From SAR202 cluster bacterium Casp-Chloro-G4 (lineage in GTDB: Bacteria; Chloroflexota; Dehalococcoidia; Lucifugimonadales; JADFKI01), in NCBI GenBank assembly GCA_002816705.1, contig MUCK01000004.1, forward strand, positions 1 to 34,568: a stretch of DNA of 34,568 nt, read 5' to 3'. Shown one piece after another: positions 9,202-25,075 of this stretch (the first letter of the stretch is position 1; each line of letters starts with the position of its first letter). Both the position numbers and the translations under genes were made by a program. The notes beneath the pieces were generated by a model. That model had not been told where the DNA came from and did not search any database. It saw only the letters and a program-made list of their open reading frames with translations.

Positions 9202-10440
9202 TTGTCCGCACAGTCCGCTGCAGTAGGAACGCGCTTTCAGGCAATTAGCGCGTTGCGACATCGTAACTACCGCCTTTACTGGTTGTCCGGGCTGGGTCAG
9301 GCCATGGCTGTGGGCATGCAGTTCCTTATCCTGGGTTGGCTGGTGCTGCAGTTAACCAACTCGGCCTCGCAACTCGGGCTCGTGATATTCCTGTATGGCT
9401 TGCCCAACCTGTCCATGCTCTTATTCGGTGGCATCTTTGCCGACCGCGTCGACCGTCGTTTAATGCTGGTGTACTCGCAGATGGCGGTGACTGCACTTGT
9501 ACTGCTAGCTGCGACGTTGACCTTGCTACAACTCATTTCCATATGGCACATATATGGGATAGCCCTGGTCTTGGGCGTCATTCAGGGAATCAACATGCCC
9601 GCCCGCATCTCTATCGTTGCCGACCTTGTGCCCAGGGAGGACATCCTCAATGCCACATCATTGAACATGGCGGTCTTCAACACCGGTCGCATCATTGGGC
9701 CGTCGATTGCCGGCGGGATAATCGATTATGTTGGACTAGGCCATGCCCTGTTTATCAACGCTGCGCTTTATGCTATGGGCGTGTTGTTTTTGCTGATGAT
9801 GAGCGGTGTGCCCTCAAAGACTGCCCGCAACCACGGGAACCTGCTCATAGGTCTTTGGGAGGGAGTACGGTATACCGCCGTTACGCCTATTGCCTATTCG
9901 CTGGTGGGCCTGAGCTTTGCCTTTGGTTTTTTCGGCGCAGCCTACATCCAGGTGTTGCCCGCTTTCGCCAAAGATGTGCTGAGGGTAAACGCCAGTGGTG
10001 CGGGCTGGCTAATCTCAGCCAGCGGGATCGGCTCGCTTTTTGGCAGTATGTACATGGCCTCTCTAGGCAACACCCGGCACAAGAGCGCCCTGCTCATCGG
10101 AATGATAACCCTATTTGGAGTGATGCTTTTCTTTTACTCGTTGTCACCCATATATGTCCTTTCCTTCATCATCTTGCTAATTGCCGGGATAGGCTTCACC
10201 GGCTTCATTTCCATGGGTACCACAATTTTTCAACTGTCCACACCTATGGAACTCCGAGGCCGGATGATGAGTCAGTGGCTGGTCGGAGCGGCAACCCAAT
10301 TCGTCGGGGCATTTCCGATAAGCCTGGCTGCAGAATACCTGGGGTGGCATACCGCCATGGCGGGCAGCGCTCTCATGATGTTGGCCATGGTCTTTTGGCT
10401 TGGGATCTACCGGCCAACGTTCCGGCAATTGAAGCTTTGA
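9202..10440 (+). CDS. MFS transporter, EntS/MFS_3-like exporter
   Basis: A 412-residue MFS protein whose N-terminus RHRNYRLYWLSGLGQAMAVG and following GWLVLQLTNSASQLGLV are characteristic of the MFS_3/enterobactin-exporter-like group; the conserved loop FADRVDRR follows. Twelve hydrophobic segments are seen. I place the start at the TTG at 9202 because GGGAG lies 5 nt upstream; the first in-frame TTG is at 9181 and would put that ribosome site inside the gene. The gene stands alone between divergent MFS genes and polA. It probably exports a small hydrophobic compound or siderophore-like molecule; the substrate is unknown. Confidence 0.88.
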   Translation: MSAQSAAVGTRFQAISALRHRNYRLYWLSGLGQAMAVGMQFLILGWLVLQLTNSASQLGLVIFLYGLPNLSMLLFGGIFADRVDRRLMLVYSQMAVTALVLLAATLTLLQLISIWHIYGIALVLGVIQGINMPARISIVADLVPREDILNATSLNMAVFNTGRIIGPSIAGGIIDYVGLGHALFINAALYAMGVLFLLMMSGVPSKTARNHGNLLIGLWEGVRYTAVTPIAYSLVGLSFAFGFFGAAYIQVLPAFAKDVLRVNASGAGWLISASGIGSLFGSMYMASLGNTRHKSALLIGMITLFGVMLFFYSLSPIYVLSFIILLIAGIGFTGFISMGTTIFQLSTPMELRGRMMSQWLVGAATQFVGAFPISLAAEYLGWHTAMAGSALMMLAMVFWLGIYRPTFRQLKL

Positions 10441-21189: not shown

Positions 21190-21195
21190 GGAGGT
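21190..21195 (+). promoter_or_regulatory. Shine-Dalgarno site that points to an ATC start for the LigB-like gene
   Basis: GGAGGT at 21190-21195 is followed by 5 nt and then ATC at 21201. No ATG, GTG, TTG or CTG start occurs in frame between the upstream in-frame TAA (21195-21197) and the ATG at 21240, which has no ribosome site before it. Confidence 0.6.
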
Positions 21196-21200
21196 AAGAT

Positions 21201-22172
21201 ATCGCGGAGATACTAGGACTTGGCTGCACCCACGCACCTATGATTTTGTTTCCACCGGAGCATTGGAAGAACGTAAGGAAGGGCCTGGGTGGGCGTATTC
21301 CTAACTACCAGCCCCCTGAAGAGTTGGTTTCCGACCTGGGCGACGATAACGGCCTGACCCAGGACAAGATTAATCACCAGCGCATCATGGATGCCTTCGC
21401 CGTTCTTCGCGAGAAGCTGCACGCGTGGAAACCCGACGCGGTCATACTCATAGGCGACGACCAAGCAGAGAACTTCAAGCGTGAAAATCTGCCCACGTTC
21501 TGCATGTACACAGGCTCGCAGGTGGACGGTTACCCTTTCCACGCCGCCAGCGACGACAATAACGTGTGGAAGATTCAGCCGGAGACCAAGTTCTCCTACA
21601 ACTGCCCGGATAAGTTCGCGACCGACCTCGTCAAATTCGTTATCCGTGACGGCTTTGATATGTCATCTTCCACAGAACTGGCTGGATGGGAGTGGGGCCT
21701 GCCCCACGCCCACATCAACCCGCTAATGTACCTGGACCAGGACGGCGAATTGCCCATTCTGCCGCTGTTCGTAAACTGCCTCGGCGAGGAGGCTGGCGAC
21801 GGCTATCCTCCCAGGCCCACGGCCAAGCGCTGCCACGAACTGGGCCAGTCCATACGCCGTTTCCTGGACACCAGGTCCGAGCGTGTGGCCGTGATAGCGT
21901 CTTCAAGCTGGTCACACTTCTTCCTGACTGAGAAGTTCGACCGATGCGCCTTCGACAGCGAGTTCGACCACCGAAATCTTGAGCTGGTTCGTAGTGGCCA
22001 GGGCAGCAAGCTGGCGGAGCTTACGCCAGAAGAGTTGCAGTCCTCCGGCGATCACGAATTCCTGAACTGGATGATAACGCTGGGTGTTGTAGGCGATAGG
22101 CCAGCCGAAATCCTGGACGCGCTGGACGCTCAGTCTCAGATATCGTTCAAGGTCTTCGCAGTCTGGGAATAG
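21201..22172 (+). CDS. LigB-like extradiol dioxygenase-family protein with apparent ATC start
   Basis: The 323-residue product resembles the catalytic LigB subunit of class III extradiol dioxygenases (protocatechuate 4,5-dioxygenase type). Read from ATC 21201 it begins AEILGLGCTHAPM, whose H11 is the first iron ligand. A start at ATG 21240 would remove it. The catalytic His (SSSWSHFFL, H239) and the Glu ligand (DSEFDHR, E254) are present. The second iron His, usually in a NDH or DDH motif, is Gln here (LIGDDQAENF, Q88). Thus it may be a divergent dioxygenase or a non-redox hydrolase of the fold. It follows LLM oxidoreductase and bicupin genes, a setting that suits ring or enol cleavage. Confidence 0.82.
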   Translation: MAEILGLGCTHAPMILFPPEHWKNVRKGLGGRIPNYQPPEELVSDLGDDNGLTQDKINHQRIMDAFAVLREKLHAWKPDAVILIGDDQAENFKRENLPTFCMYTGSQVDGYPFHAASDDNNVWKIQPETKFSYNCPDKFATDLVKFVIRDGFDMSSSTELAGWEWGLPHAHINPLMYLDQDGELPILPLFVNCLGEEAGDGYPPRPTAKRCHELGQSIRRFLDTRSERVAVIASSSWSHFFLTEKFDRCAFDSEFDHRNLELVRSGQGSKLAELTPEELQSSGDHEFLNWMITLGVVGDRPAEILDALDAQSQISFKVFAVWE

Positions 22173-22438: not shown

Positions 22439-23437
22439 TTGGCCACAGAAATCCAGCACGGCCACGCACATGCGGCAGCGGCCTCTGATATAACCGGGGC
22501 GGCAAAGAAATTCCTGGCTAGCCTTTCCGGAGACCAGAAGGCTAAGGCGATGATCGAGTACACCAAGGGCGAACGGTTCTTCTGGTACTACCCGCCGCTT
22601 AACAGGCAGGGACTGCCGCTACGGGATATGAACGATTCCCAGCGCGAACTGGCGATGAACGTCATAAAGACCACCATGAGCGAGGAGGGCTACAACCGCT
22701 CCAAGCTAATCATGGAACTCGAGGACATTCTTGGCCCCCTGGAGGCTGAGGAAGACAATGTGGGCTGGGAAAGAAGGCCCGATCTCTACTACTGGACCAT
22801 TTTCGGCGAACCGGGTGGAGACGGCCCCTGGGCTTGGCGTGTAGAGGGACATCACATCTCGGTGCAGTTCAGCATCTGGGGCGACAACATCATAGCCTCG
22901 ACGCCGTTCTTCTTTGGGGCCAACCCCGCAGAGGTTCCCAAGGGTCCCAAGCAGGGCCAACGAGTCCTACACGTCAGGGAGGACACAGGATTCGAGCTGC
23001 TGAACTCTCTGGATGCCAGTCAGCGCGTTAGGGCTATCGTGCACGAAAAGGCGCCGTGGGACATCTACACCTACAACGCTACCAGGCCATCGCTGCCCGA
23101 GGGAGAGGGGCTTCCTGCGTCGGAGATGACCGGCTCACAGCGGGAGATTCTAATGTCTCTCATTGCGGAGTACGTGAACCAGGTCCGAGGCGAATTTGCT
23201 GACCAGAAGATGGCTGAAATTCAAAAGAAGGGCATCGACGACTTCTTCTTCTCGTGGCATGGCGGCACTACCAGGGCCGACAAGCATTACTACAGGATTC
23301 ACGGCGGTACCTTCGTTGTCGAATTCGACAACTTCCAGAACGATGCCAATCACATCCACTCGGTGATTCGCGACGTGAACAACGACTTCGCGAACGACGT
23401 GATTCGTGAGCACCGCATCATGTACCACATCGACTAG
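22439..23437 (+). CDS. DUF3500-family protein
   Basis: A 332-residue protein recognised as DUF3500 from the segment SWHGGTTRADKHYYRIHGGTFV, VEFDNFQNDANHIHSVIRD and the opening LSGDQKAKAMIEYTKGERFFWYYPP. The family has no established biochemical function. The conserved W-R-x-x-G-H-H and N-D-A-N-H-I-H segments are rich in His, Asp and Asn and could bind a metal. An N-terminal stretch HGHAHAAAAS is His/Ala-rich, but there is no signal peptide. The TTG start follows GGGAGGAG. It has its own promoter and is closed by a strong terminator, so it can be expressed alone, although it sits at the end of the oxidoreductase block. Confidence 0.85.
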   Translation: MATEIQHGHAHAAAASDITGAAKKFLASLSGDQKAKAMIEYTKGERFFWYYPPLNRQGLPLRDMNDSQRELAMNVIKTTMSEEGYNRSKLIMELEDILGPLEAEEDNVGWERRPDLYYWTIFGEPGGDGPWAWRVEGHHISVQFSIWGDNIIASTPFFFGANPAEVPKGPKQGQRVLHVREDTGFELLNSLDASQRVRAIVHEKAPWDIYTYNATRPSLPEGEGLPASEMTGSQREILMSLIAEYVNQVRGEFADQKMAEIQKKGIDDFFFSWHGGTTRADKHYYRIHGGTFVVEFDNFQNDANHIHSVIRDVNNDFANDVIREHRIMYHID

Positions 23438-23596: not shown

Positions 23597-23617
23597 CGTG
23601 TGTAGGTGGTCAAGAAA

Positions 23618-25075
23618 ATGGCGAATATCGGATTCGTAGGCTTGGGCGTAATGGGGAGCCGCATGGTCCAGCGCCTCATGGATGCGGGCCACACAGTGAC
23701 CGGATACAACCGCACCAGGTCCAAGGCAGAGGAGCTGTTGGACAATGGCATGCTATGGGGCGATACGCCGCGCGCCGTCGCCGAGGCCTCTGAATACACG
23801 CTGAGCATGGTTTCCAACACCGAGGCACTTTATGCCATCACGGGCGGTCCCGACGGCGTGCTGGCAGGCCTGAGTCCAGGCAAGTTCTACGTGGACATCA
23901 GCACCGTGAGCCCGGCCGCCAGCAGGGACCTCGCCAAACAGGTTTTGGGTACTGGGGCGCAAATGCTGGATGCCCCGGTCTCCGGCAGCGTCATTACGTT
24001 GGAGCAGGGCACCCTGTCGCTCATGGTTGGGGGCGACCCTGAGGCCTTCGAGGCGGTCAAGCCGATACTGGAGGCCATCGGGCCTACCGTAAATTACGTC
24101 GGCGAAAATGGCCTGGCAGTCACTATGAAAGTTGCGACGAACCTCAGCCTCGTGGTCCAGATGCTGGCATTCTGTGAGGGCGTTCTTCTGGCTGAGAAGA
24201 GTGGCATCAAGCGCGAGACCGCCGTTGAGGTGCTATTGAATAGCGTCATAGCGTCGCCCATGATCAAGTACCGAGGCCCCTTCGTGCTGGATATGCCAGA
24301 CGAGGCCTGGTTCGATGTGAACATGATGCAGAAGGACCTGAGTCTGGCCCTGGAATTGGGCAAAGAGATGGATGTTCCCCTGCCAACCTCGTCCGTCACC
24401 AACGAGTTTCTTACAGCAGCGCGCGGCATGGGGATGCAAAATCAGGACTTCGCCGTTATTTTCGAGGTGCTTGCCGCTATGTCCGGCGCAACTATGGTGA
24501 TTACTATCGCTGTGGGAGCCGTCATCGGCGCAGCTTCGGGATACTTCGGGGGGCACATCGATGAGCTATTCATTCGCATTGTTGATCTACAAAATGCGTT
24601 GCCCTTTATTTTGGCGGCGCTAGTCGCAGTCGGAGTCTTTGGAGCAAGCTTCGGAACCCTTCTCGTAATTGTAGCGATCTTTTCCTGGGGCGGTACGGCG
24701 CGACAAATCCGGGGCGAGGTCCTCCAAATAAAAGAGATGGACTACGTATCCCTCGCCAGAGTGGCTGATGCGTCGCCTACTCGAATCATTTTCCGACACC
24801 TGCTTCCGGGTGTAACAAATACGCTAATCGTGGTTGCTACCTTGGGCACGGGGCAGATCATACTCACTGAAGCCACACAAAGCTTCCTGAGCGTGGGCAT
24901 TCCGCCCCCCAATCCTGCCTGGGGCAGTATGGTATCGGACGGCAGAGACTACATTGGCTCAGCCTGGTGGATTGCGGTTATTCCCGGCGTGGCCATCGCA
25001 CTAGTCGTGGTTTCCCTCAACTTCTTGGGAGACTGGCTGCGCGACCATTTCGATCCCAGGTTAAGACAGATTTAA
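23618..25075 (+). CDS. Chimeric protein: beta-hydroxyacid dehydrogenase fused to truncated DppC-type permease
   Basis: Residues 1-289 form an essentially complete 3-hydroxyisobutyrate dehydrogenase-family enzyme: IGFVGLGVMGSRM (NAD(P) site), DAPVSGS, and GLAVTMKVATN with catalytic K171 and N175. It ends FAVIFEVLAAMSG, where the family normally stops within a few residues. From about residue 291 the same frame continues as the C-terminal two thirds of a DppC/OppC permease (AVIGAASGYFGG, the EAA loop EMDYVSLARVADASPTRIIFRHLLPG, ending GDWLRDHFDPRLRQI). The permease lacks its first membrane helix, its periplasmic segment and part of helix 2. The ATG follows AGGTGG. It could be a true fusion, a recombination scar, or an assembly join near 24488; no known protein has this order to my knowledge. 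Confidence 0.85.
   Translation: MANIGFVGLGVMGSRMVQRLMDAGHTVTGYNRTRSKAEELLDNGMLWGDTPRAVAEASEYTLSMVSNTEALYAITGGPDGVLAGLSPGKFYVDISTVSPAASRDLAKQVLGTGAQMLDAPVSGSVITLEQGTLSLMVGGDPEAFEAVKPILEAIGPTVNYVGENGLAVTMKVATNLSLVVQMLAFCEGVLLAEKSGIKRETAVEVLLNSVIASPMIKYRGPFVLDMPDEAWFDVNMMQKDLSLALELGKEMDVPLPTSSVTNEFLTAARGMGMQNQDFAVIFEVLAAMSGATMVITIAVGAVIGAASGYFGGHIDELFIRIVDLQNALPFILAALVAVGVFGASFGTLLVIVAIFSWGGTARQIRGEVLQIKEMDYVSLARVADASPTRIIFRHLLPGVTNTLIVVATLGTGQIILTEATQSFLSVGIPPPNPAWGSMVSDGRDYIGSAWWIAVIPGVAIALVVVSLNFLGDWLRDHFDPRLRQI

Follow-up and report, generated by a model that had tools for sequence, protein, structure and literature searches.

A probable AUC start codon in a LigB-like gene of a SAR202 cluster bacterium, and AUC or AUU starts of recF in the same order

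In the 34,568-nucleotide stretch analyzed here (the window), a LigB-superfamily frame on the forward strand is open from an ATC at 21201 to the TAG at 22170-22172, and its first ATG is codon 14, raising the question of where its translation begins. The original prediction named the ATC. In the sequence as given, our analysis indicates that this ATC is probably the start codon, which would make the LigB-like gene a new AUC-start case of the kind known from infC.

Anatomy of the start region

The features of the start region are collected in Table 1. The predicted spacing of GGAGGT, 5 nt ahead of the ATC, was borne out by the coordinates. Because the TAA is in frame, the start of the frame is confined to positions downstream of 21197, as had been argued, and no start other than the ATC keeps the conserved N-terminus. 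The locus therefore combines a strong Shine-Dalgarno sequence at proper spacing with a conserved N-terminus that begins at a codon other than ATG, GTG or TTG and has no canonical alternative. In a genome of the same family, the 3' end of 16S rRNA (locus L134) reads ...CACCTCC, the matching anti-Shine-Dalgarno sequence. Conversely, the 20 bases preceding ATG 21240 (TTGGCTGCACCCACGCACCT) hold no Shine-Dalgarno match, in agreement with the claim that this ATG is without a ribosome site. The possibility that translation begins upstream and shifts frame was dismissed, the TAA being in frame and the Shine-Dalgarno sequence exactly placed; RNA folding around the start region revealed nothing distinctive.

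Table 1. Features of the start region and its surroundings (window coordinates)
Feature	Position	Strand	Remark
Shine-Dalgarno GGAGGT	21190..21195	+	5 nt before ATC; matches anti-Shine-Dalgarno CACCTCC
In-frame TAA	21195..21197	+	bars starts further upstream; overlapped by GGAGGT
GAT codon	21198-21200	+	between TAA and ATC
ATC	21201..21203	+	inferred start codon; homologous codon ATG in 29/29 orthologues
Codons 2-13, AEILGLGCTHAP	21204..21239	+	conserved N-terminus; first core beta strand; invariant H11
First in-frame ATG (Met14, codon 14)	21240..21242	+	lacks a ribosome site; not taken as the start
LigB-superfamily gene	21201..22172	+	323 aa; PF02900
DUF3500 gene	22439..23437	+	TTG start; downstream neighbor; marks syntenic site in G001

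Across 1.28 Mb of the bacterium's own genome, GGAGGT lies 4-7 nt upstream of 29 of 36,908 ATC trinucleotides (0.08%). The arrangement of GGAGGT and ATC exceeds chance, and this ATC also falls on the exact codon that is ATG in every orthologue. We collected 29 distinct orthologues (58-81% identity) from searches of relatives, of the order and of the genome collection, the named relatives being Chloroflexi/Dehalococcoidia MAGs. All 29 carry ATG at the homologous codon, preceded within a few bases by a Shine-Dalgarno match in nearly all, and none starts at the later ATG, the outcome that the original prediction had called for checking. Since the orthologue starts align with the ATC codon, the true N-terminus lies there and Met14 is ruled out. 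By the same comparison, the ATC is a private, single-base ATG to ATC change; conservation of the non-canonical start, as might be expected of a functional AUC, AUU or AUA (AUH) start, was not found among the 29, and there is accordingly no sign that selection has maintained the AUC.

Further downstream, at 23606-25075, a 3-hydroxyisobutyrate-dehydrogenase-like protein is fused at about residue 294 (~24,485) to a truncated DppC-type ABC permease. The fusion point is 3.3 kb away from ATC 21201. The fusion was found in none of 12 relatives searched, and in G001, the sole other genome of the genus examined, the dehydrogenase ends normally at 298 residues; the fusion may reflect a deletion or an assembly misjoin.

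Family, fold and N-terminus of the product

The product belongs to the LigB superfamily by both profile and fold: it matches PF02900 at 79.6 bits (curated cut-off 26.3; E 2.7e-22), and the best hits of its AlphaFold model (pLDDT 92.6) are LigAB, MhpB, DHPAO and DesB. It shares the fold of the class III extradiol dioxygenases (LigAB 1bou, MhpB 8k04, DesB) at a Foldseek E of 1e-16, with 17-19% identity in the structural alignment. In the model, the first core beta strand comprises residues 3-9 (mean pLDDT 93 for residues 1-10). Within residues 2-13, A2, E3, G6, G8, C9, H11 and P13 are invariant in eight close sequences, and adding paralogues at 32-38% leaves E3, G6, G8, H11 and P13 invariant. 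All 29 orthologues conserve the first core strand and H11, both of which would be lost from a start at ATG 21240.

From its place after strand 1, we infer that H11 is the counterpart of LigB H12, and E286 and H239 align in sequence with LigB E242 and H195. The second iron histidine of LigB, H61, aligns with Gln88 in a DDQAENF motif, a residue invariant across all orthologues and examined paralogues. By alignment, the canonical 2-His-1-Glu iron site (LigB H12, H61, E242) is thus not intact, and LigB activity should not be assumed. The prediction that the N-terminus carries an iron-binding histidine was right about an invariant residue that would be lost from ATG 21240, but the iron site it presupposed has glutamine at the position of LigB H61.

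AUC, AUU and AUA starts in the lineage

A start at AUU, AUC or AUA is classical for infC. Eight of eight relatives conform to this, with infC starting at ATC in five (G002, G003, G005, G006 and G057), at ATT in G001, and at ATA in two (G073 and G086). The relatives were examined because infC was not found in the bacterium's own 67% complete draft. An infC (IF3) match was likewise absent from G004, a genome of the same family (6 contigs, 94% complete), while the other searched relatives have the gene.

A scan of the 1.28 Mb of own genome read for a Shine-Dalgarno sequence followed by a near-cognate codon was noisy, and yielded recF as a second gene with an AUH start, ATT after GAGGT (L102, minus strand, 10466; contig C23). 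For the other inspected hits, a canonical start that looked plausible lay upstream or close by. Among 29 sampled genomes of the order (loci L152-L181), recF starts with ATC in 12, ATT in seven, ATG in five, GTG in four and TTG in one, so that 19 of the 29, own genome included, use an AUH codon. In 14 of these 19, the stretch from the upstream stop to the start codon contains no in-frame ATG, GTG or TTG, and a Shine-Dalgarno match is present at nearly all of them. The 20 recF genes examined from other parts of the class and phylum all start at ATG, GTG or TTG. When start codons were compared across 208 gene pairs with G004, recF was the only clear AUH case, in keeping with the statement that AUC initiation is very rare, which is right for ordinary genes; other flags in that comparison were shadow frames, Shine-Dalgarno overlap or a likely selenocysteine TGA. 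A search of the available literature returned no report of an AUC or AUU start in recF, a result that is not proof of absence. The AUH start of recF, conserved in the order, is a stronger and better-supported find than the AUC of the LigB-like gene. Judging by the sequences of infC and recF, AUC is usable as a start codon in this lineage. The central claim of the original prediction thus gains from this lineage-wide usage and from the position of the N-terminus, but the AUC itself is not conserved.

Separately, a gene that we take from its motif to be DUF3179-like has an in-frame TGA at the first Cys of a CPLC motif (VTW-TGA-PLC), conserved in two genera (L105, minus strand, frame position 9449, contig C26; L151, ~12145, plus strand). 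As the TGA is conserved at a Cys and the bacterium's own genome has both tRNA-Sec (L100:8580-8677) and SelB (C29), this gene is a selenoprotein candidate.

Non-canonical starts have been described for infC, which starts with ATT in E. coli and ATC in Streptomyces, and for sigR, whose GTC start is repressed by IF3 (PMC5472188). In S. aureus, infC (AUA), cvfC1 (AUU) and ccpN (AUA) all have extended Shine-Dalgarno motifs, and in poor medium the tested non-canonical starts were expressed at ~10% of the AUG level (PMC13009471). The LigB-like gene resembles infC in having AUC after a strong Shine-Dalgarno sequence, in a lineage whose own infC starts at ATC, ATT or ATA; however, infC keeps its non-canonical start across bacteria for autoregulation, whereas the LigB-like orthologues all have ATG and a regulatory logic is not evident. 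cvfC1, ccpN and the sigR of Streptomyces are likewise ordinary genes, repressed by IF3 or expressed at about a tenth of the AUG level, with an extended Shine-Dalgarno motif in the S. aureus cases; their starts are conserved among relatives and experimentally demonstrated, whereas the AUC start of the LigB-like gene is private and putative. The recF of the same order (ATC or ATT) shares with it an AUH start, a Shine-Dalgarno sequence, the lack of a canonical alternative and the genome itself, yet the recF start, in contrast to the ATC of the LigB-like gene, is shared by many families of the order.

Translation from AUC and its alternatives

We put at a little under 60% the probability that the genomic sequence is right and that translation of the gene begins at AUC 21201. 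Under this reading, a private ATG to ATC change would have arisen in the source species, the strong GGAGGT would position the 30S subunit on AUC 21201, and the ordinary initiator tRNA would read the codon with a third-position mismatch. The product would begin formyl-Met-Ala-Glu-Ile-Leu..., giving the N-terminal peptide (M)AEILGLGCTHAPMILFPPEHWK, at reduced yield. As IF3 proofreads against AUC-type codons, low expression would be expected, rising when IF3 falls. For the LigB-like gene, initiation at AUC, the expression level and IF3 dependence would follow by analogy with the systems above.

The most serious competitor, to which we give somewhat better than one chance in five, is that the assembly gives base 21203 wrongly, whether by a read or amplification error or because a minority variant was taken as the consensus, and that the real start is ATG. 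This would account directly for the ATG in every orthologue. The contig (C4) comes from a 1.36-Mb draft of 53 contigs that is 67% complete, and it bears the odd fusion near 24,485, a possible misjoin seen in no relative searched. The assembly is nevertheless judged not sloppy, because 164 genes (155 kb aligned) contained no frameshift and the in-frame stops flagged among them fell at alignment ends or within shadow frames; single substitutions are poorly bounded by that check, and nonsense changes bound them only weakly. Moreover, a single change from ATG can give seven non-start codons, just three of them AUH, and an error would as readily have produced AAG, ACG, AGG or CTG. Somewhat less probable is that the ATC is real but represents loss of the start in a dispensable gene on its way out, with any residual AUC initiation incidental. 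In G001 the syntenic site, between metH and DUF3500, retains only a degenerate 51-codon C-terminal remnant of the gene (L202, 9403-9555), while DUF3500 and the dehydrogenase show 92% and 91% identity to the bacterium's own; in addition, a TAG interrupts the frame in one orthologue out of 30 (L062, G226). Some genomes can thus dispense with the gene, and a recent loss of its start codon is accordingly a live alternative.

Against such decay, the 323 codons hold no further lesion, the Shine-Dalgarno sequence is intact, and a start codon offers mutation a small target next to that for nonsense and frameshift changes. Nor are private changes in excess: we counted 11 amino-acid changes on the gene's own branch versus 16 on the sister branch, with one private change on its own branch at otherwise invariant columns, and dN relative to the sister is 0.135 against a dS of ~1.3 (saturated). 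By these substitutions, the coding body is under purifying selection, with no sign of long-term decay. Because the AUC is not conserved and a relative in the same genus holds only a remnant, sequencing error and recent start loss together keep a real share of the probability. Very little falls to a start elsewhere that yields a shortened protein: the first canonical start, ATG 21240, has no ribosome site before it and would remove the conserved strand and H11, and a near-cognate codon such as ATA 21210 lies 14 nt from the Shine-Dalgarno sequence, too far for use.

If translation from AUC 21201 is correct, the LigB-like gene would stand among the few AUC starts outside infC. Gene callers that allow ATG, GTG and TTG alone would start it at Met14 or miss it, and a Met14 prediction describes an enzyme without its first core strand and invariant His. 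More tentatively, and with the odds against it, the order may keep a small set of AUC- or AUU-started genes under IF3 control, recF beside infC, with the LigB-like gene a recent recruit turned down by its AUC. The AUC and AUU starts of recF across many families of the order offer a direct way to test whether IF3 controls a DNA-repair gene.
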